This document shows positions 12,343 to 45,155 of a DNA stretch of 64,000 nucleotides, piece by piece. This DNA is from Herbiconiux gentiana (GTDB taxonomy: Bacteria; Actinomycetota; Actinomycetes; Actinomycetales; Microbacteriaceae). Each line of letters begins with the position of its first letter. The first letter of the stretch is position 1. The translations under genes and the position numbers were made by a program. Under the pieces are notes generated by a model that was not told where the DNA came from, did no database searches, and saw only the letters and a list, made by a program, of their open reading frames with translations. The DNA lies in the NCBI RefSeq assembly GCF_024978135.1, contig NZ_JANTEZ010000003.1, forward strand, positions 372,001 to 436,000, written 5' to 3'.

Positions 12343-13746
12343 TCAGGAATCGAAGCCGATGCCGAACGCTTCCATCGCCCGGATGAGGATCCCGTCCCGA
12401 CCACCGTCGGCGTCCGAACGGGCGATCGCGCCGCGCATCGTCTGTATCACGGGGTAGGCGACGGGCTCGGGCGGGATGGGGAACGGCTTCGTCGTCGAGA
12501 ACGCGAGCGACGTGCGCTTCGTGGGAACCCCGTCGAGCAGGTCGAGCATCACGGCGGCTCCGAACCGCGTCGCCGCCACCCCCAGCCCGGTGTAGCCCGA
12601 GCTGTACGCGACCGCTCCCCCGTGCGCCGTCCCCTGGAACGACACGAACGTCGTCGACATGTCGATCATGCCGCCCCAGGCATGGCTGAACCGCGTGCCA
12701 CGCAGGCTCGGATGCGCGGTGAAGAAGTGATCCGCCAGCCGCAGGAACGTCTCGGGCCGCTGATCGTACGCGGGCCGGATGCGCCGCCCCCGATGGTAGA
12801 CGGCGTCGTAGCCGCCCCACAGGATGCGGTCGTCGGCGGTCTTGCGGTAGTAGTGGAACTGGCGCGACAGGTCGGTCATGCCGTGCCGGCCTACCCAGCC
12901 GATCTCCTCGAGCTGCGCGGCACTGAGCGGCTCGGTCACGAGCACGTAGTCGTAGATCGGCACCGTGCGCAGCGTGTTGCGCTTGAGCAGCGACGGGAAC
13001 CCGTTCGTGGCCAGCGCCACCTGCCGGGCCGCGATGCGGCCGCCATCGGTGACGGCGATCTCCGAGCCGTGGCGCCGCTCGATCTTCGACACCCGGGTGC
13101 GCTCGTGCATCCTGACCCCGAGCGACAGGCAGGCCCGTCGCAGCCCCTCGGCGAGCTTGCCCGGGTGCACGAGCGCGACGTGGTCCCGCTCGAACTCGGC
13201 ACCGCGCACGACGGGCGACCGGGTGTACTTCCGCAGTGCGTCGCCCTCGAGAACGGATGCTCCGCCCCGCCGCAGCGCGTCGAGCTGATGCGGCTCGGTC
13301 GCGACCGAGAGCACGCCCTCCTCCTCCCACTCGGCGTCGATGCCGTAGCGCTCGAGCGTCGCACGCAGCTCGTCGAAGTTCTCCTCGCCGAGCGCCTCGA
13401 TGCTCGGAAGCTCTGCCGCGAAGTGACGGGCGCCGTTCTCGTCGCCGTGGGTGAGGGTCGCCTCGACGAAGCCGCCGTTGCGGCCCGACGCGGCCCACGC
13501 GATGCGATGCGCCTCCACGAGCATCACGTCCCGATCGGGATCGCGCTCCTTGGCCTGAAGGGCGGTCCACAGGCCGCAGTAGCCGCCGCCCATTACGAGG
13601 AGATCGGTGCTCGTGTCGCCGGAGAGCGGCAGCGCCGTCGGCCTCGGGCCGTCGAGCCAGAACGGCACCGCCGAGGCGCCGCGGAGCGACTCCTCGAGCT
13701 CGGCCTCGGGGAGGCGCAGCTCGTGACCGTAAGTGGCGCCGCTCAT
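12343..13746 (-). CDS. FAD-dependent amine oxidoreductase (DAO family, PuuB-like)
   Basis: 467-residue D-amino-acid-oxidase-fold flavoprotein. The dinucleotide motif is LLVMGGGYCGLWTALQAKE (residues about 49-67), followed by WAASGRNGGFVE, the flavin-contact motif of gamma-glutamylputrescine oxidase-like enzymes. Towards the C-terminus are HAWGGMIDMS and SSGYTGLGVAATRFG (FAD-binding region). The ATG at 13746 overlaps the stop of the upstream cupin gene (ATGA). Such enzymes oxidise secondary or primary amines; with the adjacent ureidoglycine-hydrolase-like cupin the pair suggests amine or polyamine-derivative breakdown. The exact substrate is unknown. Confidence 0.85.
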   Translation of the reverse strand: MSGATYGHELRLPEAELEESLRGASAVPFWLDGPRPTALPLSGDTSTDLLVMGGGYCGLWTALQAKERDPDRDVMLVEAHRIAWAASGRNGGFVEATLTHGDENGARHFAAELPSIEALGEENFDELRATLERYGIDAEWEEEGVLSVATEPHQLDALRRGGASVLEGDALRKYTRSPVVRGAEFERDHVALVHPGKLAEGLRRACLSLGVRMHERTRVSKIERRHGSEIAVTDGGRIAARQVALATNGFPSLLKRNTLRTVPIYDYVLVTEPLSAAQLEEIGWVGRHGMTDLSRQFHYYRKTADDRILWGGYDAVYHRGRRIRPAYDQRPETFLRLADHFFTAHPSLRGTRFSHAWGGMIDMSTTFVSFQGTAHGGAVAYSSGYTGLGVAATRFGAAVMLDLLDGVPTKRTSLAFSTTKPFPIPPEPVAYPVIQTMRGAIARSDADGGRDGILIRAMEAFGIGFDS

Positions 13747-33507: not shown

Positions 33508-33529
33508 GTGCCCCTGGAGGGACTCGAAC
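33508..33529. repeat. Left attachment repeat (tRNA 3'-end copy)
   Basis: 22 bp starting GTGCCCCTGGAGGGACTC, identical to 45083-45104 inside the tRNA gene. The sequence after it no longer matches a tRNA, so this is an attachment duplicate and not a second tRNA. Confidence 0.9.
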
Positions 33530-33989: not shown

Positions 33990-34005
33990 TGGGGGGAACT
34001 GAACA

Positions 34006-35022
34006 ATGCCGATAGTGCCGATGCTGACACTCGCAGAGACGATGATTCACGAAGTCCCGCGCGGCAAGCGGAAAGATGACGGAGAGGATGTGGTCCTTTC
34101 CGTCAGTCCAACCGATCTCAACGCCGCAACTGATCGATTCATCCGTGAGGAGATGCTGCAGCCCTCCTTCGCGTCGGGGCGAGAGATCGTGCATTTGGAT
34201 CCGGCGACTGACCCAATCCCCGGCCTCCTGCGTGGAGTGCTGGAGAATCCGGATCTGCTAATTACGAACTCCGCGGCCATGGCAAGACACCTTCATGCGA
34301 TGCAGCCTGGAGGTGCATCCGCGGGAATCTTCTTGTGTTCTCGGGCAGTCTCGGACGGGATTGACCGCGTGGTGCTGATGAAGGCAGAGCATAGCGAGGG
34401 CATGCGCTTGCAGCAGGTGCGCGATGCGAATGGTGACGTGGCGTTCGTGGCTGAGCACCTGGACGAGCTCATACTTGGCCAGAAGGCACAGGTCTACAAG
34501 ATTGCTCTCGTGTGGTTGGATCACGCGGACCAGCTAGTCGGCCTCATGGTGGACCGCCAGAATGGGGTTGGCTATGCCGAGTACTTCCTTCAGTACCTTG
34601 GCTTCAACCTGGTGCACCAAGCCGAGAAGCTGGTCCTAGAGTTCACCAAAGGGATGACAACCCATATCAACACCTCCGACTACTCGCCAGAGAAGAAGGG
34701 CCGCTACCTCAGCGCCCTGGCCGCCGTCCTTCAGAGTCCCAATCCACGGCTCAACCCGAACGCCTTCATCCGGGAATTCATCGACCCAGAGGACCGCCAC
34801 ACGGCGGCTGCAGCTCTGCCGATACAGGTCGCGAACTTGGAGTTTCGGAAGGACACCACACTCGTCCACCATCTCATTGGCGGCCTAAAGCTCTCGACCG
34901 ACAACGGGGTGACAATCTCGGCTTCGGCCTCGGCCATCGAATCCGGCGTACTTGAAGTGAAGGACGAAGAGATCGTCGTTCACGCACCAGCTTCGGGCTA
35001 CAAGCTCGGGAAGGCGCCGTGA
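34006..35022 (+). CDS. NdpA-like nucleoid-associated protein
   Basis: 338-residue member of the 37-kDa nucleoid-associated (NdpA/YejK) family. Recognisable parts are the N-terminal IHEVPRGKRKDDGEDVVLSVS, a central AGIFLCSRAVSDGIDRVVLMKAEHSEGMRL (the strand/helix pattern of the family) and LVWLDHADQLVGLMVDRQNG, then YFLQYLGFNL and a C-terminal domain. NdpA proteins bind nucleoid DNA; in accessory loci they often appear as sensors or partners of defence genes. The ATG at 34006 has GGGGGGA about 8 nt upstream. The stop overlaps the next start (GTGA), so it is co-translated with the RelA/SpoT-domain gene. Confidence 0.8.
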   Translation: MPIVPMLTLAETMIHEVPRGKRKDDGEDVVLSVSPTDLNAATDRFIREEMLQPSFASGREIVHLDPATDPIPGLLRGVLENPDLLITNSAAMARHLHAMQPGGASAGIFLCSRAVSDGIDRVVLMKAEHSEGMRLQQVRDANGDVAFVAEHLDELILGQKAQVYKIALVWLDHADQLVGLMVDRQNGVGYAEYFLQYLGFNLVHQAEKLVLEFTKGMTTHINTSDYSPEKKGRYLSALAAVLQSPNPRLNPNAFIREFIDPEDRHTAAAALPIQVANLEFRKDTTLVHHLIGGLKLSTDNGVTISASASAIESGVLEVKDEEIVVHAPASGYKLGKAP

Positions 35023-36008
35023 CAACCGTGTCGGGGGCGAGCCTCTCGACCGCAGACATCTACACGGCTTCCAAGCCGGCGTTGGACGCAGCGCTTGTCG
35101 CGTACGAAACCGCAGTGAAGGCCATTGTCAAGCCGGTAGCCGGTGAGCACTACGTGAGTGGTCGGGTCAAGGCTAAGCGCAGCCTCATTCGCAAGCTTGC
35201 TAAGGATGGCAACGGAAGTCTGCGGAGCTGGGAGCAGATCACCGACAAGGTCGGCGTGCGAGTCATCTGCTCCACGAAACGCGACCGAAAGGCCGCAGCC
35301 GCAGCCCTAGAGCAGTACGGTTGGGCAGAGTGTAGGCGCGAGGATAAAAGAGCGAAGAAACAAGGACTGGCCTATACCGGGGTCCATGTAACTGTCCACG
35401 ACGGCACGCAGCTGGACTCGGAGCGCCTTCCCATACTTTGCGAGGTTCAGGTGCGAACCCGTGCCCAGGACGCGTGGTCAGTTGTCTCTCATAAGCTCAC
35501 GTATAAGGGCCTGATCGATCTCCCTAACAAGTTGCAGCGCGTTGTTTGGCGATTGACGGTCCTGACCGAGATCTTCGACGATGACATTCAACGGATGTTC
35601 AAGAAGAGGGAGTCCTTGCCTGCATACGAGGTGGCGCGAGCAATCGAGTACTTGGATGACAAGTACGAGACACTTCTTGGTGAGCCTGGCGGTGTCCCCG
35701 ATGACCTTGACATCATGAACATCCTTTGGAATGCCTATACAGCGGAAGAGCGCGCGCGGTTCAGCGAAATAATCGCTTCGTTCATAGATGAGTCGCCAGA
35801 CTTGTCGAAGCAAATCGCAAACCACCAGCCCGGCAAGCTGGGCTACGTAGATTCACGCGACTGGCTATTCACGCAGCCAGAAGTACTGGCGGTGCTGGAG
35901 CGCGGCACACGCAACGAGCACATGCTTGTCCATGCGGTATCAAACACAGACTTGGCCGATGTCGTCACGAAGACATGTGCGGCCTATGGGGTAGTCCTCC
36001 CTGGTTGA
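35019..36008 (+). CDS. RelA/SpoT-domain nucleotidyltransferase (small alarmone synthetase/toxSAS-like)
   Basis: 329 residues. The RelA/SpoT synthetase fold occupies about residues 25-200: VSGRVKAKRSLIRKL (nucleotide-binding loop), ITDKVGVRVIC (D-x-x-G-x-R), LAYTGVHVTVHDG (Y-x-x-x-H), and CEVQVRTRAQDAWSVVSHKLTYKG (the E-x-Q-x-R-T and H-x-L-x-Y-K motifs). All usual catalytic positions appear present. The C-terminal 130 residues are helical and specific. No hydrolase or ACT domain exists, so it is a standalone synthetase: it could make (p)ppGpp, (p)ppApp, or modify tRNA like some toxSAS. Coupling to an NdpA-like gene suggests a sensor-effector pair or toxin-antitoxin-like unit. Confidence 0.82.
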   Translation: MTTVSGASLSTADIYTASKPALDAALVAYETAVKAIVKPVAGEHYVSGRVKAKRSLIRKLAKDGNGSLRSWEQITDKVGVRVICSTKRDRKAAAAALEQYGWAECRREDKRAKKQGLAYTGVHVTVHDGTQLDSERLPILCEVQVRTRAQDAWSVVSHKLTYKGLIDLPNKLQRVVWRLTVLTEIFDDDIQRMFKKRESLPAYEVARAIEYLDDKYETLLGEPGGVPDDLDIMNILWNAYTAEERARFSEIIASFIDESPDLSKQIANHQPGKLGYVDSRDWLFTQPEVLAVLERGTRNEHMLVHAVSNTDLADVVTKTCAAYGVVLPG

Positions 36009-36039
36009 TTCTGGCGAGCCATCTAGCGAGTAGCGGATC

Positions 36040-36377
36040 CGCGGCTAAGCGCCAGGTAACGTTTGCGTGGCAAGGTCAAGGCCACTCAACGACCCTGCAG
36101 AGTATTCGCTGAGCTTAGTAGCTCGTTTGCATTGATCGCAGAAACTCACCGGGGGTGAGCCGTATCGACTCCACCCTGGAGCGGATCGGCAGACTTCGGC
36201 AAGCCAGCGCCATCCCCCATCGCGAGCCCGACTACGAAGTGACACTGAAGGGTTCTGTCCGCGTTCGCGTCGGTGGAGCCGCCCGAGGGTAGCCCCACCG
36301 ACGCCGGCGATTCTCCAGGCGTCACGCTCTGCGCTGGTGTGTGTGCTCGAACAAGTCGGGCGAGCCTGGGCGCCCTG
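36040..36377 (-). ncRNA. Candidate DRT3 template RNA downstream of drt3b
   Basis: 369 bp lie between the convergent RelA/SpoT gene and drt3b without a credible ORF. On the drt3 sense strand the RNA would contain CACACACAC (36345-36337) inside a closing stem CCAGGC/GCCTGG (36369-36364 with 36320-36315). A perfect 10-bp stem follows (36304-36295 with 36276-36267), then CTCACC/GGTGAG (36159-36154 with 36150-36145) and CTCCA/TGGAG near 36175. DRT3 systems are reported to need an ncRNA, and I recall an ACACAC template being copied into poly(GT). The exact 5' and 3' ends are unknown; 36040 is a guess. Confidence 0.6.
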
Positions 36378-38423
36378 TCAATATACCTCTAGCATTCGCT
36401 TCCGCTCGAGCGCCGCGTATAAGTCGAACGTCTCCCAGTCAACGTTCCATCGCCGGCTTCTCGCGACCATACGATCCACTGATGCCTCGGTCGTCACAGC
36501 GTAACGTGCGCTAATTGTCTTCCTGATAGATCGCGCGACAAACGGGCAGGTGAGCACGTTTAGATTCAGTAGCGCTAGTTCCCCATCGATCAACGGCCGC
36601 TCCTGCATCCGGATAATCCAAGCTTCGCAAGCAGCACGGAGTGAGGGGTAGGCGGTCGATCGCTTCATGTGCAGGAGAAGACTGACCAGGAGAAGCACGT
36701 TCATAGAAGATGGCTCGCGGAGCATTCCGTCGGACCTTGAGAACCCGCAGAGATCCGCCAACTCGTCTTCGCGAATCGCGTAACTCGCACCTAAATCCGA
36801 GACGCAATCGAGGAGTGTAGCGGTCACTGCGTCTGGGGCCATAGCTCCTCTGGACCGCCTCAGTTGCTGCATGAGCTCGTCGCGAACTCGCATCTCCACA
36901 CGCTCGCGCTCGTGAGCCGGGATTCCATCCGAGCGTGCGAACCGCAGAAGCGAACTACACACTCGAGCGACCTTCACTGCGGGACTCATACGCGGAGAGC
37001 CCGAGTAGACAAAGAAGACGAAGTCCAACAACGCGAGGAGGGCTGTGGTGAGCGTATTGTCGTGCCGTGCCCGTTGTTGGACGGTGAGTTCAACACCCTC
37101 AAGATCTTGTTTAGACCTGCGTAGGATCTTCTCGAATGCACGCTCGACGCGGGCCAGAGCATAATTCGCTAGCTCAAAGTGACTGACGCCAGTGTCCAAC
37201 AAGATTGCCTTGTACCCCACGATGAGTTCACCTGCATCGACATAGGGGCTGCTTACGACGCCGTCGTTGACTTCTCGATCGCGTCGCTTGGTCGCTTGCC
37301 GCAGAAGTTCGCGCACCCGCTTCTTTGCGATCGTCAGCGGCGAAAGCCAGGGAGTGAACTCGCCTTCTTCCTTCGCTGCATTCAAATGAAGCTTGTACTT
37401 GCGCAAGCTCCTCGCCAGCGCGTCAACGACGAAATGACGCCTGCTTTCATCTGCCAGGAATATGAAGTAGTCGTCCACGTAGCGAAGGACCTCGTAGTCT
37501 TCCCCGAACTTCATTCCGACACGATCGAGTTGATCTGCAAGTTCGAGATCCACTGCCTGAAGAATGACCTCTGCAAAGAGTCGTGACACTTCGGAACCGA
37601 TTGTGATGCCGCTTGTCTCGCTATGGTTGAGGCGCTGCATGAGCTTATCGAACGCGCCCCCAAATGTCCGATCGAGTTGCTTTCCCATCAAGTTAGCCTT
37701 CACGACATCGTGCCCGTGCGCCGCCCACGCGATCGAGTGGGTGTAGATACTGTCGAAACATTTCGCCACATCGACCTTGACTAGATACCCGAACCGGCGC
37801 TCACATGATCGGTATTCAGAAGAGTCATAGAACTTGTAGACGTTCGAATAGCGCTGGTACGTGAAGTAGGAGCGAAGCCACTCATATTCGTGGTCATCGT
37901 GTTCAATACTGTCGTGTGTTCGCCGCTGAAGTGCGAACAAAGAGTCACGCACAACGACGTAGGGCGCGACTCGGGCGGGCCGCCTCAAAGTGAAGCGGCT
38001 CTTCGACGTGTGGTAGAGGATGAGGTCCTCGAACCTCGCGTAGAAATCGACCACTTCCAGCTGCGCCATTGGGTGAGGTACTGTCAGGGTTCGGTAGTCG
38101 TTCTTTCGGTGACGGACGGTGTACTGAAAGGGAAAGGTTGCGATCGCTCCACCTTTCCGTGAAAGCGCTAGAGCCACAGAGCCTCCCGACGCGCTCCCCG
38201 CGGGGAACGAAGCCCGCCGTCCGAGTATCACTCCAAGAATCACCTCTGACGTATCGTCAAGTTGCTTCGCGTGAACTGTGTCCGCTCCGAGGCGCACGTC
38301 GGCGGCGCGGAGAAAGTCATAAAAGCCCCGATTGCTAAATGACGGCGGTAGTTCGTAGGGCAGAACATCGCTCAAGACCACTCGTGCGGGGTGCTTGCGC
38401 AGAGACCGTCGATGCTTAGGCAA
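36378..38423 (-). CDS. drt3b: Antiviral reverse transcriptase Drt3b (UG8 type)
   Basis: 681-residue reverse transcriptase of the unknown-group-8 class. RT motifs are RFGYLVKVDVAKCFDSIYTHS (motif A region), GITIGSEVSRLFAEVILQAVD (motif B) and VLRYVDDYFIFLAD (Y-x-D-D), followed by the thumb KLHLNAAKEEGEFTPW. A long helical C-terminal region (about 350-681) is typical of this family. The start is TTG 38423, overlapping the drt3a stop by 8 nt with an AAGGGG-rich site upstream; no ATG is near. With drt3a it forms the two-RT DRT type 3 anti-phage system, acting by DNA synthesis during infection. The structured region after its stop is the likely RNA partner. Confidence 0.88.
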   Translation of the reverse strand: MPKHRRSLRKHPARVVLSDVLPYELPPSFSNRGFYDFLRAADVRLGADTVHAKQLDDTSEVILGVILGRRASFPAGSASGGSVALALSRKGGAIATFPFQYTVRHRKNDYRTLTVPHPMAQLEVVDFYARFEDLILYHTSKSRFTLRRPARVAPYVVVRDSLFALQRRTHDSIEHDDHEYEWLRSYFTYQRYSNVYKFYDSSEYRSCERRFGYLVKVDVAKCFDSIYTHSIAWAAHGHDVVKANLMGKQLDRTFGGAFDKLMQRLNHSETSGITIGSEVSRLFAEVILQAVDLELADQLDRVGMKFGEDYEVLRYVDDYFIFLADESRRHFVVDALARSLRKYKLHLNAAKEEGEFTPWLSPLTIAKKRVRELLRQATKRRDREVNDGVVSSPYVDAGELIVGYKAILLDTGVSHFELANYALARVERAFEKILRRSKQDLEGVELTVQQRARHDNTLTTALLALLDFVFFVYSGSPRMSPAVKVARVCSSLLRFARSDGIPAHERERVEMRVRDELMQQLRRSRGAMAPDAVTATLLDCVSDLGASYAIREDELADLCGFSRSDGMLREPSSMNVLLLVSLLLHMKRSTAYPSLRAACEAWIIRMQERPLIDGELALLNLNVLTCPFVARSIRKTISARYAVTTEASVDRMVARSRRWNVDWETFDLYAALERKRMLEVY

Positions 38424-39759
38424 GCCACGCCCCTTTCAGTCGTTTCATGCGAGGCATGGACCAACGATGGACAGTTCGCCGCCTGAACCCTTTCTCGAAC
38501 GACAGCGCCTCGATTTTCTTGTCAAGTCCTGGAGGTAATGCGGACTGCGAGGCTCGCTGGCGAAGGTAGCTATCCAACCCAGCCAGAGACTGCACATCAG
38601 TTAGGTGTGGGTTAGAGAAATAGATCCCGACCAGCGCATTGCGCTTGTTGTACGAAAGGCGAGTGTTCGCCGTCAAAAAGCGGAGTCGGTCGAGAAGCAA
38701 GCTCCGCCTGCCGTGGTTGGCTGAGTCTGCGCGATCCCATGCAGAAAAAGTCCTGTCGATACGGTCGCGAATCGTTTTATAGCGAGCATCCGTCAACCTC
38801 ACCAACAGGCCAGCACCGCCTCGATACTCGATCTCATATCCCAGGAACTCGATCTTCTGGGTTGAGTTCTTTTCGAGCTCTGGAGACAGAGTTTTACCTG
38901 AGTTGAGCGAAAGGTCGATTCTCTGAAGCTCCGCTTCGATTTCCGCAACTACCGAACTCGGTGCGACCGCGCTCACAGCTTCCTCGCCACGCACGAGTAC
39001 GATGTCATCGACATAGCGCGCGAAGTACAGTGTCCCCTGGGAGTCGCGCAAGGCGCGATCGGTCTGAGCGATATACAGCTCGGCTAGTTTGGCGCTAAGT
39101 CCCACCCCTGCGGGCAGACCTTTCGGCTTCCCAGTGAGCACTTCCATTTCGGTGAGCAACCCGTCGATTAGGCGTCGGCACGATGGACTAAGCCCTGTTA
39201 TGTCCAGGTGGGATCGAAGCCGACGGTGATCAATGCTCTCGTAGAATTCCTTCACGTCCACTCGGACGACGATTTTGGGAACGTCATTGTCGATCGTACG
39301 TATGAGCCCCGCGACGATCGATTGGCGCCCTCGCGGGCGGGTTGGCAAGTATGAAGTGACGATGCTCTGAAGGTGCTTATCAGCGAAAAACGCCTCCGGC
39401 GTCTTAGCGATCGAGTATGTCTGACGTTTGCTCCCGACAACGTGCCCTGGCGCCAAACCCCAGGCAAACGCGTCAGACTCGACGCTTCCGACGAGCGCTT
39501 CGCTGGTGGCAGCCAGAGACGCATCGAGCAATTCCTCGGCGTCCTGGCGGGCCGCACGAGCAACCGCATCTGGAGCCGACTCCGGAGGACCAATGTATGC
39601 AACCGACCCATTTCTCGCCGAACGAGCGAGATGAAGAGCGTCGCGGGCCAGTTCGTAGGCGCGACGCACCTCGGGATAGAGCTGAAGCCGATCACGCCCT
39701 CGCCGCGCTTCCAAGTCCCAAATCTTGCGCAAGTTCTTTGGTGAAAAACTTTGATCCAT
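38416..39759 (-). CDS. drt3a: Antiviral reverse transcriptase Drt3a (UG3 type)
   Basis: 447-residue reverse transcriptase. KIVVRVDVKEFYESIDHRRL (motif A), KPKGLPAGVGLSAKLAELYI (motif B) and LYFARYVDDIVLVRG (Y-x-D-D) are intact, with LSLNSGKTLSP and IEFLGYEIEYRGG as the thumb-side motifs. The N-terminal 140 residues are helical and lack a nuclease or maturase domain. The ATG at 39759 is preferred over 39783 because GGAGGG lies about 6 nt upstream. It overlaps drt3b by 8 nt, indicating stoichiometric expression. The UG3+UG8 pairing defines DRT type 3. Confidence 0.88.
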   Translation of the reverse strand: MDQSFSPKNLRKIWDLEARRGRDRLQLYPEVRRAYELARDALHLARSARNGSVAYIGPPESAPDAVARAARQDAEELLDASLAATSEALVGSVESDAFAWGLAPGHVVGSKRQTYSIAKTPEAFFADKHLQSIVTSYLPTRPRGRQSIVAGLIRTIDNDVPKIVVRVDVKEFYESIDHRRLRSHLDITGLSPSCRRLIDGLLTEMEVLTGKPKGLPAGVGLSAKLAELYIAQTDRALRDSQGTLYFARYVDDIVLVRGEEAVSAVAPSSVVAEIEAELQRIDLSLNSGKTLSPELEKNSTQKIEFLGYEIEYRGGAGLLVRLTDARYKTIRDRIDRTFSAWDRADSANHGRRSLLLDRLRFLTANTRLSYNKRNALVGIYFSNPHLTDVQSLAGLDSYLRQRASQSALPPGLDKKIEALSFEKGFRRRTVHRWSMPRMKRLKGAWLA

Positions 39760-40220
39760 CCCCGGCCCTCCCTCCGCGAGCATATCGACTGACGCCGCCT
39801 CAGGCGTGGCGTCAAACTTTGACTGGGTCTCTCACCGACTCGTCTCTGAGACGATCATCGCCTCAGCTGGGCGCCCGAGATAGCGAGTCAGTCACCCGCT
39901 CTATGCACTTCGCAAGTTCGCAGATGCGAATAAGTCGTCAGAACACCAGCAACTGAAATCTCCTGTCGACGACGGGATGATTTCCAGTGACCGTCGCAAC
40001 GGCCTCAGATTCGAGCGCTGCCGACAGCTTGTCAAACCTGTCCTCATCTCGCCTCGTCAGTTGCCTCTTGTAGATCCCCCCTACGTCTCGAGACAACCCA
40101 AGGCTCGCTCCGCCGCCTCTTCTCCGTCCTCGTTCTCCGGTTAGATCCTTCGCCCTGCTCCTAGTGTTCTCCTCGTTGCTTCTACAGTTCTTCTTGTTCC
40201 TCTTCTCAACTTCTTGTTGC
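39760..40220. other. Non-coding leader of drt3a with a strongly purine-biased strand
   Basis: About 460 bp without a gene. From about 40100 to 40230 the plus strand is pyrimidine-rich (the drt3a sense strand is purine-rich), with 20-bp-spaced imperfect direct repeats TTCTTGTTCCTCTTCTC (40191) and TTCTTGTTGCTCTTCTC (40211). The strand bias points to a transcribed leader RNA or a protein-binding tract. No promoter could be assigned with confidence. Confidence 0.5.
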
Positions 40221-40486
40221 TCTTCTCGTCTGCGCCACTGCCACCCCTTTACTTCTCAACCTCCGTCAGACAGCAACGATGTTTGGGGGAGGTTGGGAAG
40301 CGCGCCCTACGCGGGGGTGGCAGTGGCGCAGGCGAGAAGAGGGACAAACTATTCCACTACCTATTCCCGCTCGAGGAATAGGTAGTGGAATACCCCACGT
40401 GCATGGAGCCGAACGCGCAAACTCGATCCGATGTCGCGCACGCAAACTACGTTTGAGGCTCTGCAGGGGGCGAGAAACATGCCCCC
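40221..40486 (+). ncRNA. Cluster of very long hairpins, possible structured RNA
   Basis: The arms 40221-40247 and 40314-40340 pair at all 27 positions if one G-U is allowed. Inside them 40252-40264 and 40288-40300 pair at 13 positions, again with one G-U. Both wobble pairs are G-U only in a plus-strand RNA. A perfect 17-bp stem with a 7-nt loop follows (40351-40367 with 40375-40391), then CAAAC/GTTTG (40443-40455) and GGGGGC/GCCCCC (40466-40486). No ORF spans it. It could be an ncRNA, a recombination or transfer site, or a MITE-like insert. Confidence 0.5.
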
Positions 40487-40606
40487 TACGGGCGCCACTC
40501 CGATGTCTCCCGTCCATTACAGAATTGATCGAACGGATGAGCATCGAACCACGACGGCAAGAGAGCTTGGCGACATGGATAGCGGAGAAGGTTGAGGTGG
40601 TCAGAG

Positions 40607-41755
40607 ATGGCAGGCAGCGTGACCCCGTACAGCACCTCGCAAGGCAAGCGATACCGCGTGCGGTACCGAAAGCCGGATCACACCCAGACGGACAAGCGGG
40701 GATTCAAGACCAAACGCGAGGCCGAGCTGTTCCTCGCCTCGGTGACCGTGTCTAAGGCGGCCGGTGACTACATTGATCCGGCTCTGGCTCGCGTCTCGGT
40801 CGGCGACCTCGCTCCTCTGTGGCTGCGCTCGAAGTTGGTGCTCAAGCCCTCATCGTCAAAACCGCTGGAGGGCGCATGGGGCGTGCACGTTGCAGAGAGA
40901 TGGGGCGACCGCGAAATCTCGACCATCGTTCCCTCAGAGGTGCAGGTATGGGTGAGCGAACTGGCGGGTCGCCGATCGCCCTCTGTGGTGATCCGGGCGC
41001 ACGGTGTGCTCGCGGGCATCCTCGACATGGCCGTCACCGACCGTCGCCTTCCTCGGAACCCGGCGCGCGGGGTGAAGCTGCCCCGCAAGACCGGGAAGCT
41101 GAATCGCGTCTACCTCAGCCACGACCAGGTGCACACTCTCGCCGGCCTGTCCGCGCATCCGACGCTCGTGCTCTGCCTCGCCTACACGGGCATCCGGTGG
41201 GGAGAGGCTACCGCGCTGCGCGTGCGGCACATCAACTTCCTCCGGCGCCGACTGAACGTCGAAGAGAACGCTGTGAAGGTTGGCGCCATCATCCACCTCG
41301 GCACGACCAAGGGGCATGAGCGCCGATCCGTGCCGTACCCCGAGCTGCTCAGCGCGGGCCTCGCCGAACAGTGCGCCGACAAGGGCCCCACGCAGCTCGT
41401 GTTCGGCGGCGGCACCTTCCACATGAAGTCACCGGACTCCGTCGACGGATGGTTCGTGAACACCGTCCGCCGAGCGCAGCAGGCCAACCCCGACTTCCCT
41501 TTCCTCACCCCGCACGACCTTCGGCACACGGCCGCGTCACTCGCGATCAGCAGCGGCGCAAACGTGAAAGCGGTGCAGCGGATGCTCGGTCATGCCTCGG
41601 CCGCAATGACCCTCGACACCTACGGCGACCTCTTCGACGACGACCTCGAGATGGTGGCCGCCAAGATGCAGGAGGCAGCACGTGAGGCGAGTATCGGCAA
41701 GAGCTGGGCGATCAATCTGGCGCAACAAATGTCATCGGGGTCAAAGTGCTCTTGA
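40607..41755 (+). CDS. int: Tyrosine integrase of the tRNA-Arg island
   Basis: 382-residue phage-type tyrosine recombinase. An N-terminal arm-binding domain (SQGKRYRVRYRKPDHTQTDK, then FKTKREAELFLASV) and a SAM-like core-binding domain precede the catalytic domain with Arg in YTGIRWGEATALR, a Lys-containing TTKGHERRSVPYP, HDLRHTAASLAI (H-x-x-R), MLGHASAAMTLDTYGDLF (His/Trp-like position and the Tyr nucleophile). All catalytic residues are present. The ATG at 40607 has GAGGTGG 6 nt upstream. It should integrate and, with an excisionase, excise the island at tRNA-Arg. No excisionase gene was recognised. Confidence 0.92.
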   Translation: MAGSVTPYSTSQGKRYRVRYRKPDHTQTDKRGFKTKREAELFLASVTVSKAAGDYIDPALARVSVGDLAPLWLRSKLVLKPSSSKPLEGAWGVHVAERWGDREISTIVPSEVQVWVSELAGRRSPSVVIRAHGVLAGILDMAVTDRRLPRNPARGVKLPRKTGKLNRVYLSHDQVHTLAGLSAHPTLVLCLAYTGIRWGEATALRVRHINFLRRRLNVEENAVKVGAIIHLGTTKGHERRSVPYPELLSAGLAEQCADKGPTQLVFGGGTFHMKSPDSVDGWFVNTVRRAQQANPDFPFLTPHDLRHTAASLAISSGANVKAVQRMLGHASAAMTLDTYGDLFDDDLEMVAAKMQEAAREASIGKSWAINLAQQMSSGSKCS

Positions 41756-42357
41756 TTGTTGCCGCGAGATGCCGGTTCGCGTTCTCAGCAGATGCTTAAG
41801 GCGCAGGCGGCTCGGGATCGTACGATCCAAATTCACCTTCAGCGACGACGCATCTTGGCGCCAGGCACATAGGGGCGGGCGCGACGTGAGGCAGCTACCT
41901 TGGTTACGCACTCGTCCCGGGCAAGGACGATAGGAAAGATAGAACTAGGAGCGATGCATGGAGCTGGCAATTCGGCGAGTACTGCTTCGGCTGGCCACCG
42001 ACATGACATCACTTCGCGGCGCGGGCGTCTCGGCAAACGCACGAAGTAACGGCCCGGTCGCGCCGAACTCCTTCGTCGGGCTCATCCGTCTTAGCGCGGC
42101 GTAACGGCAGCTTTTGCCGAAGGTGCTGTCACCAGGCTATGATGACGGGAGAGAAATCGAAGCCTTAGATGTCCGTGGGACCTCCAAGGCCGCAGAGTTG
42201 GTTGCACGAAGCACGCTCCCCATGATGTCAACAAGCTGGGGAGTATGGCCTAGACCGTTGGGTGCCCGCAAGGGATGGCGACCTGCAAGAGTTGGCGTTT
42301 TTCGCGTAGTTCGGCAACAGTGTCGAACGCAATTATATGCGCGAGGAGCATCTAGAT
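41756..42357. other. 600-bp gap after the integrase
   Basis: No credible gene was found. A 14-bp perfect palindrome GGATCGTACGATCC lies at 41815-41828. An 83-codon frame at 42114-42365 lacks a ribosome site and overlaps the next gene start. Immediately before the OST-HTH ATG there is GAGGAG (42342-42347). Confidence 0.4.
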
Positions 42358-43320
42358 ATGTTTGACAACTTGGAAAAGAACGCCGATAGCGGTTCGTCCA
42401 CGACGAGCGCTCGTCCCACTTGGACCGGCAGTTCTGACAAGGTTGGGACCGATGCTTCCGCGGCACCGATTTCGGGCCCTGCTGAGGGGATAACCTCTCC
42501 CCAGCAGGGCCATTCTCGTCCCTCAGACGATCTCCTCTTGCAGGCGGTCCGCACGCTCCTCGCGCGGAACTCACGACCATTCGCCGCCGGCGTATACGGG
42601 CTCATGCGGCAGATCGAGCCGACCTTCACCTTCGATAGCGTCGGCTTCTCGTCGTTTCGCGCGTACCTAAGCGATGCGGCGGATCGGGGCGTAGTGACCT
42701 TCAGCCCCGCGCCGCGGGGAAGCGACGTCGTAATCGCGGAGACGTCAGGCTCCGGAACGGACAAAAGACCCGCCCTCGTGACCGCGACCACGCTACGCAA
42801 AGATTTGTGGGATGCGTTCGTCGACTGGAGTAACGAGTCCAACTACGTGTTCCGGCCGATGACGAACGAAGTCGCCGCGCTCAAGCCCGGCGAGAGCGCT
42901 GGCGACGGAGCTGTCCATATTCCATCCGCTAGCCGTGATGATCAGCTCGTATGGATGCGGGAGCTTGCTGCCTCGGAAACAAACGCGGCTGTGAAGGACG
43001 AACTCGAGGCCGCCCTACGCGAAGATCAACCTACGCGGGCCTTCGCCAAAGTACTTCGCGAGCGAACGTCCGTCGGCCGTGCATGGAAGCGCCACCTGCG
43101 CCGAATGATCCTGAACCGAGCGTCGCAGTGGGCCGAGGAGAATGGTTTGCCGCAAAGCGTTCTCCAGCCCGCCACAATCCACGAGCCGCCGTCCCGGAAC
43201 CAGACCGCTACCAACGAGGATTCGGCCGCGCGTGACCGCGTCCTCGCCATCCTCGCCGACTTGCCACTAAGCGAGCTCCTGAAGCTGAGGATCCCGCTTG
43301 AGTACGCGCTCCGAAGGTGA
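42358..43320 (+). CDS. OST-HTH/LOTUS-domain protein
   Basis: 320 residues. After a Ser/Thr/Gly-rich N-terminal linker, residues about 55-130 match the OST-HTH (LOTUS) winged-helix RNA-binding domain: LLLQAVRTLLARNSRPFAAG, MRQIEPTFTFDSVGFSSFRA, and the strand VVTFSPAPRGSDVVI. The rest (about 135-320) is helical, with no recognised catalytic motif. LOTUS domains bind RNA, in bacteria usually fused to NYN nucleases. The ATG at 42358 is selected by GAGGAG about 10 nt upstream. The stop overlaps the start of the next gene (GTGA), so the two products are made together. Confidence 0.7.
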   Translation: MFDNLEKNADSGSSTTSARPTWTGSSDKVGTDASAAPISGPAEGITSPQQGHSRPSDDLLLQAVRTLLARNSRPFAAGVYGLMRQIEPTFTFDSVGFSSFRAYLSDAADRGVVTFSPAPRGSDVVIAETSGSGTDKRPALVTATTLRKDLWDAFVDWSNESNYVFRPMTNEVAALKPGESAGDGAVHIPSASRDDQLVWMRELAASETNAAVKDELEAALREDQPTRAFAKVLRERTSVGRAWKRHLRRMILNRASQWAEENGLPQSVLQPATIHEPPSRNQTATNEDSAARDRVLAILADLPLSELLKLRIPLEYALRR

Positions 43321-44582
43321 CCAGCGGAGCCGACCACCATCTGCGTCGGCTCGTCGAGAAAGCAGCCTCCCTCGATGAGGCCGTCAGTCGCCTCGGGAAG
43401 CGAAACTCCCACGAGCTTGGTCTGGGTATTACGAAGAAGCGGGAGTACTCGACCCCGACCGGGAAGGTAAAGCTGCCCACCTACGGCCCGGCCTTGAGCG
43501 CTCTCAGTGAAGCCGTCTGCCAGCCGGTCCAGGCCTTCGACGAGAAGAACTCTCAAGGGTGCTGGGGGATTCTCCTAGGTGCGCCGGGGGCAGTCATACA
43601 GATGCCTCAGCTGACGTCGGATGAGCTCGCGCGACAAGGCCTTGATGTCGGTGCCACTGACATCAGCAAGCTCCGGCAACTCGCGCTGATCGCGGTGATC
43701 CGGCCATCGAGGGAGTGGGACGACTCCCAGGCGCTCACCCAGGAGCGACTCGGGGGTATCGGACTGCTGACTCTCGCACCCGACGACCACGGTCCCGGAG
43801 CACGCATGGCGTGGCTGCGCACTCGCTGGGCGAACACGACCCGCGAGTTCGTGTCCTTCCTGGAGCCCATCTATGCAAGAGCGGGCTACCTCGATAGGCC
43901 AGTCAAACCGCGTGTCGCCGTGGTCATCGACCAAAACTTCGCCGGAGGTGATCCCCGCACGACCATCAACTCGTTGCGTGCGACAGCGGCCGTCTGCGGA
44001 CTGAGAGTAGAAGGGTTCGTGCGTGACGCTTCCACGCATCAGAACGTCCTAAACTCCCTTACGAAGGAGCCTCATGGGCATCTGATTACCCTTGGTTCAG
44101 GGGCCGGCATGGACGCAGTCCAAGCAACTTTCCGCAAGACGCCCGCTGGCGCCGTCGCGGGCCGCATCAGCGACGTGTCCGAGAATTCTCCGCTGGAATC
44201 GCTACGGGAACGCTTCACCAAGATCGCGGGAGTCTCGGCCGCGCTCCAACCCGTGCTCGAGCCGCCACACGGTTTCCTCACCATGCCAATAACTCCTGTC
44301 GACTGCCTGCACGATGGTGCGTTCGTTTATGTGAGATCAAGCGAAACCGATCTGTGGTGGACGAAGGATCTCGACCGACACGGAGGCGCCGTCTTCAAGA
44401 CATACACAAAGATCAATAACAGACTGGAATTCCAAGCAGATCGAGACGCACAGGGAGACATTGTCACGAAGAAGCGGAAGGGAGACACCCGACGGGTGAT
44501 CCCTCTCCATACGCTTAACCCGTGCAACCGGCTAGCGACGAACACGGAGTCGCATGTGCGGGTGCCGCATCCCGACGCTTAG
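43317..44582 (+). CDS. Unrecognised partner of the OST-HTH protein
   Basis: 421 residues, no family recognised. The central PRVAVVIDQNFAGGDPRTTI followed by LRVEGFVRDASTHQNVLNSL and LITLGSGAGMDAVQATF has the strand-Asp/helix/strand-Asp rhythm of a divergent NYN/PIN-like nuclease, which would fit an OST-HTH partner; this is speculative. The C-terminus SETDLWWTKDLDRHGGAVFK and KINNRLEFQADRDAQGDIV looks like a second domain with conserved-looking Asp and Trp. Start GTG 43317 by coupling. The stop TAG is followed in the same frame by more protein-like codons. A new two-gene defence or RNA-binding module is possible. Confidence 0.6.
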   Translation: MTSGADHHLRRLVEKAASLDEAVSRLGKRNSHELGLGITKKREYSTPTGKVKLPTYGPALSALSEAVCQPVQAFDEKNSQGCWGILLGAPGAVIQMPQLTSDELARQGLDVGATDISKLRQLALIAVIRPSREWDDSQALTQERLGGIGLLTLAPDDHGPGARMAWLRTRWANTTREFVSFLEPIYARAGYLDRPVKPRVAVVIDQNFAGGDPRTTINSLRATAAVCGLRVEGFVRDASTHQNVLNSLTKEPHGHLITLGSGAGMDAVQATFRKTPAGAVAGRISDVSENSPLESLRERFTKIAGVSAALQPVLEPPHGFLTMPITPVDCLHDGAFVYVRSSETDLWWTKDLDRHGGAVFKTYTKINNRLEFQADRDAQGDIVTKKRKGDTRRVIPLHTLNPCNRLATNTESHVRVPHPDA

Positions 44583-45011: not shown

Positions 45012-45082
45012 CGCGTTTTCTACGCAAGAGCGAATGGCCCCAGATCCGCGGAATCACGGGAGTCTAAGCACCCAACAGACGG

Positions 45083-45104
45083 GTGCCCCTGGAGGGACTC
45101 GAAC
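45083..45104. repeat. Right attachment repeat inside tRNA-Arg
   Basis: 22 bp covering the acceptor stem 3' strand and most of the T-arm of the tRNA gene, identical to 33508-33529. Integration keeps the tRNA intact on this side. Confidence 0.9.
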
Positions 45105-45155
45105 CCCCAACCCTTTCCTTAGGACGGAACTGCTCTTCCATTGAGCTACAGAGGC
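45084..45155 (-). tRNA. tRNA-Arg (CCT anticodon), island attachment site
   Basis: 72 nt without encoded CCA. The acceptor stem GCCTCTG/CAGGGGC pairs with one T-G; the D-arm is GCTC/GAGC; the anticodon loop GTCCTAA sits between TTCC and GGAA; the T-arm GGGGG-TTCGAGT-CCCTC has one wobble; the discriminator is A. Anticodon CCT reads AGG. The 3' half is duplicated at 33508-33529 as the left end of the island. Confidence 0.9.

Follow-up and report, generated by a model that had tools for sequence, protein, structure and literature searches.

The window analysed here is a stretch of 64,000 nucleotides (nt) from Herbiconiux gentiana (contig NZ_JANTEZ010000003.1, positions 372,001 to 436,000), the minus strand of which carries two overlapping reverse transcriptase (RT) genes, drt3a and drt3b, followed directly by a candidate template RNA. 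Judged by its sequence, the system is a true DRT3, that is, a complete two-RT anti-phage module, as had been proposed in an earlier note made from the letters of the window. The features at the locus are the following:

38416..39759, minus: drt3a, UG3 class RT of 447 amino acids (aa), from PADLOC, NCBIfam and a start shared with relatives
36378..38423, minus: drt3b, UG8 class RT of 681 aa with a TTG start, from PADLOC, NCBIfam and alignments
36263..36377, minus: candidate DRT3 template RNA, from the drt3b stop to the end of the DNA homology with the actinobacterial locus L010, by which its ends were placed
36370..36373, minus: stem a, GCGC, 5' strand of stem 1
36364..36369, minus: stem b, CCAGGC, 5' strand of stem 2, which crosses stem 1
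36365-36361 / 36349-36345, minus: P2 hairpin, GCTCG/CGAGC, 5' of the template
36345-36337, minus: CACACACAC tract, starting at position 33 after the stop codon, with 32 bases between
36344-36337, minus: template ACACACAC, within the CACACACAC tract
36331..36334, minus: stem a', GCGC, 3' strand of stem 1
36315..36320, minus: stem b', GCCTGG, 3' strand of stem 2
36267..36304, minus: terminal hairpin with a perfect 10-bp lower stem, GCGTCGGTGG/CCACCGACGC; -31.9 kcal/mol

The two genes (39759-38416 and 38423-36378) overlap by 8 nt, both proteins match Pfam RVT_1 and both carry YVDD, as the earlier note had read them. Its assignment of the pair to Drt3a (UG3) and Drt3b (UG8) is borne out by PADLOC, with best matches of 1.5e-86 and 6.6e-172, and by NCBIfam equivalogs above their curated cut-offs (NF041747, 271.7 bits against 200 for Drt3a; NF041748, 551.1 bits against 350 for Drt3b). 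A further in-frame ATG of drt3a lies at 39783, and the MDQSFS start is common to relatives. According to the accessible text on EcoDRT3, bases are selected by E22 and R241 of EcoDRT3b and DNA is primed by Y666 (Wang et al, 2026; PMC13174585). When the window Drt3b is aligned with PDB 26cz, the numbering of which was set with an offset of 108 deduced from lengths, E24, D218 and R281 correspond to the published E22, D182 and R241, and the C-terminal tyrosine Y681 is the counterpart of Y666; the two gates and the priming-tyrosine position that mark membership of DRT3 are therefore present. Over 113 aligned rows, two of which are PDB fragments, the first gate is E in 104, D in six and a gap in three, and at the second, 112 rows have R and a single broken row has I. 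When 38 rows are aligned, R281, D317, D318 and Y681 are invariant and E24 is nearly so. The six rows with D at the first gate (L004, L105, L106, L107, L109 and L111) all possess an AC-repeat tract. An AlphaFold model of the window Drt3b is of good overall quality, with a mean pLDDT (predicted local distance difference test score) of 83.7, and falls below 50 at residues 679-681, so that it is uninformative on the priming tyrosine. Its nearest folds in the PDB (library to April 2026) are DRT6, DRT4, UG15, AbiP2 and AbiK, no DRT3b being shown by that search. In an E. coli plasmid (L003, 2501-4544), the drt3b region is annotated as two hypothetical proteins, the tblastn match being in two pieces, and the RNA after it looks intact.

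The CA tract and the candidate RNA

The CA tract, which the earlier note had placed just 33 bp after the drt3b stop, lies exactly at 36345-36337. Its recurrence was examined in 112 DRT3 rows, made up of 103 of 116 genome and viral loci, eight plasmid loci and the window. The genome scan kept 80 of 462 relatives, and of the 36 viral loci, 13 with only short matches to the RT domain (L113-L125) were left out of the counts; for 14 of the 112 rows, where similarity gave out short of the stop codon, the frame was followed to the next stop, and in the broken row L112 the stop assigned to drt3b may be wrong. In 111 of the 112 rows, the first 250 nt beyond the drt3b stop contain a sense CACACA or ACACAC, compared with 6 of 112 on the other strand, 2 of 108 in the stretch from +400 to +650 after the stop and 23 of 112 in a 250-nt piece inside drt3b. 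The sole row without it, L110, is a partial gene. This distribution indicates that the repeat is a conserved part of the system, and on these counts the tract is not a product of chance. The recurrence of tract and stems in related loci, the absence of which the earlier note had named as grounds for refutation, leaves its observation confirmed and its interpretation supported. The mechanism that it put forward, a non-coding RNA 3' of drt3b with an ACACAC template copied to poly(GT), likewise agrees with the accessible text on EcoDRT3, where the AC repeat of an RNA encoded 3' of drt3b templates poly(dT-dG) (Wang et al, 2026; PMC13174585). L062 (Schmidhempelia) and L076 (Gilliamella), which had no tract under the first rule, came up in a search for templates other than AC repeats and hold a shorter CACACA, the shortest tract seen, with a long insertion before it; both keep a/a' as TGCGCT/AGCGCA.

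The 115-nt RNA (36377-36263) folds better than 200 of 200 dinucleotide shuffles (z -3.8). The order of its strands is a, b, template, a', b', so that stems a/a' and b/b' cross in the manner of an H-type pseudoknot, with a template loop of 9-10 nt and with P2 on the 5' side of the template, which are the features of the compact class of RNAs described below. The CCAGGC/GCCTGG stem that the earlier note had drawn around the tract is indeed there (36369-36364 / 36320-36315), as one half of a crossing pair rather than as a simple enclosure. The perfect 10-bp hairpin also stood, within arms of 18 nt each (36304-36287 / 36284-36267) that are 83% complementary. The RNA had been drawn down to 36040, with two further stems; the DNA homology with L010 ends at 36263, and no comparison lends support to the stems beyond that point. 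No run of T follows the terminal hairpin, and no terminator-like site was found on the minus strand. Rfam, searched over 34000-42000 at E up to 1, gave nothing at the RNA and three weak miRNA matches at 40213-40397, where inverted repeats lie; across eight DRT3 loci it gave two tRNAs at gathering scores and no DRT3 match, and a search of plasmid DNA with the RNA region gave no match.

Crossing stems in related RNAs

Related RNAs occur in two forms. The tract starts at most 92 nt from the stop in 86 of 111 rows, which we call compact, and farther away in the remaining 25. A Drt3b tree was built by a quick method, without bootstrap, from 83 of 107 usable rows, in which the window is represented by L010, of which it is a near copy (84% identical), and in which long branches were flagged for L007, L111 and L008. 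All 63 compact rows of the tree fall in one clade of 65 (support 100), which also takes in L061 and L082, where the tract begins at +131 and +141, respectively. Within this clade the five actinobacterial rows make up a subclade (support 100); L101 and L097, the counterparts of solved systems, lie outside the clade of 65. The compact clade spans Pseudomonadota, Bacteroidota, Actinomycetota, Acidobacteriota, Verrucomicrobiota, Nitrospirota and Campylobacterota. Among the best 80 of the 462 relatives, the closest Drt3b is that of Microbacterium paraoxydans. No relative was found in viral contigs scanned with the window Drt3b alone; a profile scan did find some.

The window by itself offers weak evidence for the crossing, and the case is carried by the relatives. 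The 86 compact rows gave 61 non-redundant RNAs, of which 53, including 49 non-actinobacterial ones, passed the rule set for a/a'. Over the 61 RNAs the mean score of a/a' was 13.9, against 11.85 for the best of 5000 permutations, and that of P2 was 11.66, against 10.43 for the best permutation. Stem b/b' reached its threshold in 42 of the 49 non-actinobacterial RNAs, compared with at most 26 in 5000 permutations of partners and with 15 of 245 tries in other segments of the same RNAs; when b' was sought freely over 75 nt, 41 of the 49 had it 41-49 nt downstream of a'. An alignment (A5) of 38 of the 61 RNAs, hand-chosen for even spacing and with paired columns set by eye, had 92.7% of its cells paired against 77.4% when shuffled, 162 cells with double changes against 50 (standard deviation, sd, 8.4), and 33-46% paired when the partners were slid by 1-3 columns. 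Taken alone, the pseudoknot stem was 95.2% paired with 55 double changes against 16.3 (sd 5.4), neither value being equalled in 500 shuffles, and a/a' was 87.7% paired with 33 double changes against 12.2 (sd 2.8). The number of pairs with any double change was uninformative for the pseudoknot stem (210 of 500 shuffles as high) and likewise for a/a'. Related sequences can beat shuffles in a test of this kind; the covariation is nevertheless persuasive, since the stems occur in many different complementary versions. Among the 38 RNAs of A5, the template loop between P2 and a' is 9 nt long in 26 cases and 10 nt long in the other 12. A covariance model (R1), built from A5 with the knot left out and run on 38 sources, gave 23 matches. 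It finds members outside A5, L020, L026, L033, L059 and L071 among them, at E of 1e-5 or better, and none of the far-tract L006, L008, L094, L097, L101, L102, L105 and L106 at E up to 10. The RNA of the compact form is thus probably pseudoknotted, as far as comparative sequence can tell. We found no description of such an RNA, nor any report of a pseudoknot in DRT3: the word is absent from the accessible text of PMC13174585 and PMC13314766, the main structural paper (Deng et al, 2026) lying outside the scope of this analysis.

Within the actinobacteria the motif takes a shorter form. Seven of the 11 rows (the window, L010-L013, L078 and L134-L138) possess a b/b' of at least 5 bp directly after a, namely the window, L010, L011, L012, L013, L134 and L135; their b/b' comprise five distinct sequences, b' follows a' at 9-11 nt, and a/a' of L012 contains a G-U pair. 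As L134-L138 were found after the motif had been fixed, L134 and L135 are fresh confirmations, L136 is a partial one, and L137 and L138 are failures. L138 is a relative from the same family with a divergent Drt3b (1.9e-111), which has only a CACACA downstream and no recognisable compact RNA. Alignments of the actinobacterial RNAs by MAFFT (A3, A4 and A7) were rejected, a being misaligned or gaps falling inside b; no pairs were therefore counted there, and strands were compared row by row. One R1 match elsewhere in the window (12809-12896, plus strand, 17 bits, E 0.03) is probably due to chance.

Outside the compact clade, the lineages of the solved systems (L101 and L102; L094, L097, L099 and L108) showed nested stems only. 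In the far-tract RNA of Enterobacter hormaechei (L008, 4431-4660), the stems TGCCCCTGC/GCAGGGGCA and TAGGGTGGG/CCTACCCTG cross, from which it follows that the knot may extend beyond the compact clade; possible crossing stems in L103 and L095, likewise outside it, are weaker or overlapping. Inside the clade, the far-tract RNA of a Flavobacterium (L061, 7157-7370) has GTTTTGC/GCAAAAC and CCAGTCA/TGACTGG in crossing order.

Several observations weigh against a pseudoknot in the window RNA. The crossing-stem criteria are satisfied by 405 of 20000 mononucleotide shuffles of the window, which makes the arrangement no more than modestly unlikely by chance; no bases separate a from b, so that the knot would be sterically tight; and the outer two pairs of P2 share 36365-36364 with b, leaving three P2 pairs if b is paired. 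Among relatives, the a/a' rule failed in 8 of the 61 compact RNAs, L136 has b/b' and P2 without an a/a' that passes the rule, b/b' of L078 is of 4 bp only, and L137 and L138 do not fit the motif. In addition, R1 misses the window RNA at E of 10 or better and scores 13.1 bits (E 0.33) at the matching place in L010, a miss that is expected from the spacing, b' lying about 11 nt after a' instead of 41-49. In an alternative reading, a/a' and b/b' are both real and mutually exclusive, the RNA switching between forms, for example on protein binding, and never making a pseudoknot. Covariation shows that each helix forms, which is compatible with a switch as well as with a knot, and the adjacency of a and b and the bases common to P2 and b are in its favour, as is the nested optimum of RNAfold, a program that cannot draw knots, which holds b/b' without a/a'. 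We nonetheless consider switching unlikely, given that the strands a, b, a' and b' do not overlap and that a loop fixed at 9-10 nt in 38 of 38 RNAs suggests that a/a' and P2 stand around the template together. Simultaneous formation of both stems, with the template bounded by them, is what we infer.

Proposed mechanism, rival readings and the host

We consider it probable that the module of H. gentiana is a complete DRT3 in which Drt3a makes poly(dT-dG) and Drt3b makes poly(dC-dA), leading to arrest by double-stranded DNA, and in which a compact RNA with crossing stems bounds the template. What the sequence itself shows is the identity of the genes, their key residues, the tract, and the helices with their covariation among relatives; the two polymerase activities, the double-stranded product and the role in defence are carried over from published work on other DRT3 systems. 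In this scheme, Drt3a would bind the RNA encoded directly 3' of drt3b and copy the ACACACAC loop into poly(dT-dG); Drt3b would use no nucleic-acid template and would extend poly(dC-dA) from its C-terminal tyrosine, with bases chosen by E24 and R281; the two strands would anneal, and the accumulation of double-stranded DNA would arrest the infected cell. With P2 lying 5' of the template and strand a' 3' of it, both ends of copying would be set: copying runs toward the 5' end of the RNA, which would make P2 the natural stop, and a' would limit where the product can re-anneal. The AC repeat of 8 nt would allow the product to slip back in two-base steps, giving poly(dT-dG). This logic of a boundary stem with realignment on a repeat is modelled on DRT10, as presented in the accessible text of Tang et al (2025; PMC12632851). 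A 6:6:6 DRT3 complex is described in the portion available of a review (PMC13314766).

Two further readings concern whether the RNA operates at all. The module might be decaying or silent cargo, with intact genes and an RNA that is unmade or unused in this host; the rarity of Drt3b, which at E <= 1e-60 is confined to one genome among the 394 of the class sample (the host's own) and to six among the 299 of the family sample (the host's among them), would accord with this, and so would the lack of a sigma-70-type promoter site in 36000-40600, a negative that also counts against the proposed mechanism and that comes from a scan poorly suited to actinobacteria. Both frames are open, however, and the catalytic and gate residues as well as the RNA helices are kept, which makes this reading improbable. 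It could also be argued that the tract is an incidental part of a 3' untranslated region and that the hairpins are merely a transcription terminator, as the strength of the terminal hairpin might suggest. This is scarcely credible in view of the missing T run, of the covarying stems around the tract and of the contrast between 111 of 112 rows and the low counts farther downstream and on the other strand.

The restraint of the system is a separate matter. The host is taken to be an actinobacterium also from the flanking serC gene, the best matches of which in a plasmid collection are from Nonomuraea, Arthrobacter and Tsukamurella (65-67% over 57-58% of the query). In E. coli, RecBCD is reported to restrain DRT3 (PMC13174585, accessible text). 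The genome of our host, which is 99.84% complete, gave no match to RecC, and its matches to RecB and RecD are all under the cut-off. Side by side it encodes proteins of 1304 and 1303 aa, both of which combine a UvrD-type helicase with a PD-(D/E)XK nuclease domain (PDDEXK_1), which we take to be the layout of AdnAB. In a host without RecC and with an AdnAB-like pair, the RecBCD guard of E. coli cannot apply unchanged; another factor would restrain DRT3 here, most simply the AdnAB-like pair. The RecBCD-guarded arrangement of the EcoDRT3 model is thus not found in this host, and the guard is no defining feature of DRT3.

Comparison with described systems places the window close to them in its genes and apart in its RNA. 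EcoDRT3, in the accessible text of Wang et al (2026; PMC13174585), has the same gene order (drt3a-drt3b-RNA), YVDD, E and R gates, a C-terminal tyrosine and an AC repeat in the RNA after drt3b; the residue numbers of PDB 26cz agree with those of EcoDRT3, and over 281 aa L101 matches the aligned part of 26cz at 100% identity. In L101, however, the tract lies 129 nt after the stop instead of 33, the helices are nested instead of crossing, and Drt3b belongs to another clade; the host of the window differs too, in lacking RecC. The window RNA therefore lacks the EcoDRT3-type architecture, with a template more than 100 nt after the stop and a nested closing stem. The DRT3 of PDB 9z6y/9z6z comprises, as here, both proteins and an RNA with CACACAC; its counterpart L097, which agrees with the Drt3b fragment at 99.7% of 288 aligned aa, has its tract at +124, a Drt3b in a different clade from the window's, and outer and inner stems that are nested, as they are in its relatives. 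DRT10 likewise pairs an RT with a non-coding RNA in which a short template 3' of a boundary stem-loop is copied into tandem repeats; it differs in its RT group (UG17), its SLATT partner, its variable repeat of 9 nt and its lack of a second RT (PMC12632851, accessible text). Telomerase RNA, as portrayed in the same text, also has a short repeat template beside a boundary element, either a stem-loop or a pseudoknot, a likeness of description for which no homology is claimed.

We tentatively hypothesise, with more doubt than assurance, that the widespread compact clade, to which this system belongs and neither of the solved ones does, keeps its template in an H-type pseudoknot that sets both ends, a minimal core resembling that of telomerase RNA, and that in hosts with AdnAB, such as this one, AdnAB replaces RecBCD in policing the product, so that DRT3 would guard a different nuclease. 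If the knot is real, a bacterial RT that adds repeats would contain a template-in-pseudoknot core, which would bear on how such RNAs compare with that of telomerase. It is in DRT3 that a polymerase templated by its own side chains has been reported, paired with an RNA-templated partner; at about 115 nt and with a fold that covariation supports, the candidate RNA gives a smaller template unit for study in a clade that spans several phyla, and a host without RecBCD makes the restraint and the trigger of DRT3 directly testable outside E. coli.

The island around the module

The surroundings of the module contain these features:

33508..33529, no strand: left 22-bp direct repeat (attL-like), from its match to the right copy
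40592..41755, plus: tyrosine integrase, Pfam Phage_integrase 2.7e-17
45083..45104, no strand: right 22-bp direct repeat (attR-like), at the 3' end of tRNA-Arg(CCT)
45082-45155, minus: tRNA-Arg(CCT), the 3' end of which holds the right repeat

From these borders, the DRT3 module is cargo of an integrative island of 11.6 kb at tRNA-Arg. In G684, a genome from the same genus, the identical repeat pair lies 16.4 kb apart (L149, 528-16946), and the DNA between matches the window only beside both repeats and over 40220-41725, the integrase region (90.7%), which points to other cargo and hence to a family of islands with exchangeable cargo. Another genome, G680, has a single copy of the repeat in the 19.3 kb compared. 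On the outer side of the left repeat, the segment 29856-32621 is matched only in short pieces, in 2 of 15 other genomes of the genus sample, so that the variable region is larger than the island. The DNA shared between L010 and the window is confined to 36263-39789 (77%), which argues that the genes and the RNA travel as one unit.

The island contains other genes. On the plus strand, 34006-35022 encodes a protein with a weak likeness to NA37 (20.6 bits in Pfam, below the cut-off) and 35019-36008 a RelA/SpoT-domain protein (7.1e-17; PADLOC PDC-S33 6.4e-09); these overlapping genes are a possible second defence operon. Between the integrase and tRNA-Arg, a further overlapping pair on the plus strand (42337-43320 and 43317-44582) has no match in Pfam, PADLOC or NCBIfam. 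Nested long inverted repeats, of 34 nt (91%) and 18 nt (100%), lie at 40214-40392, between drt3a and the integrase; they most likely belong to the element and not to DRT3, as the part from 40220 is common to G684.

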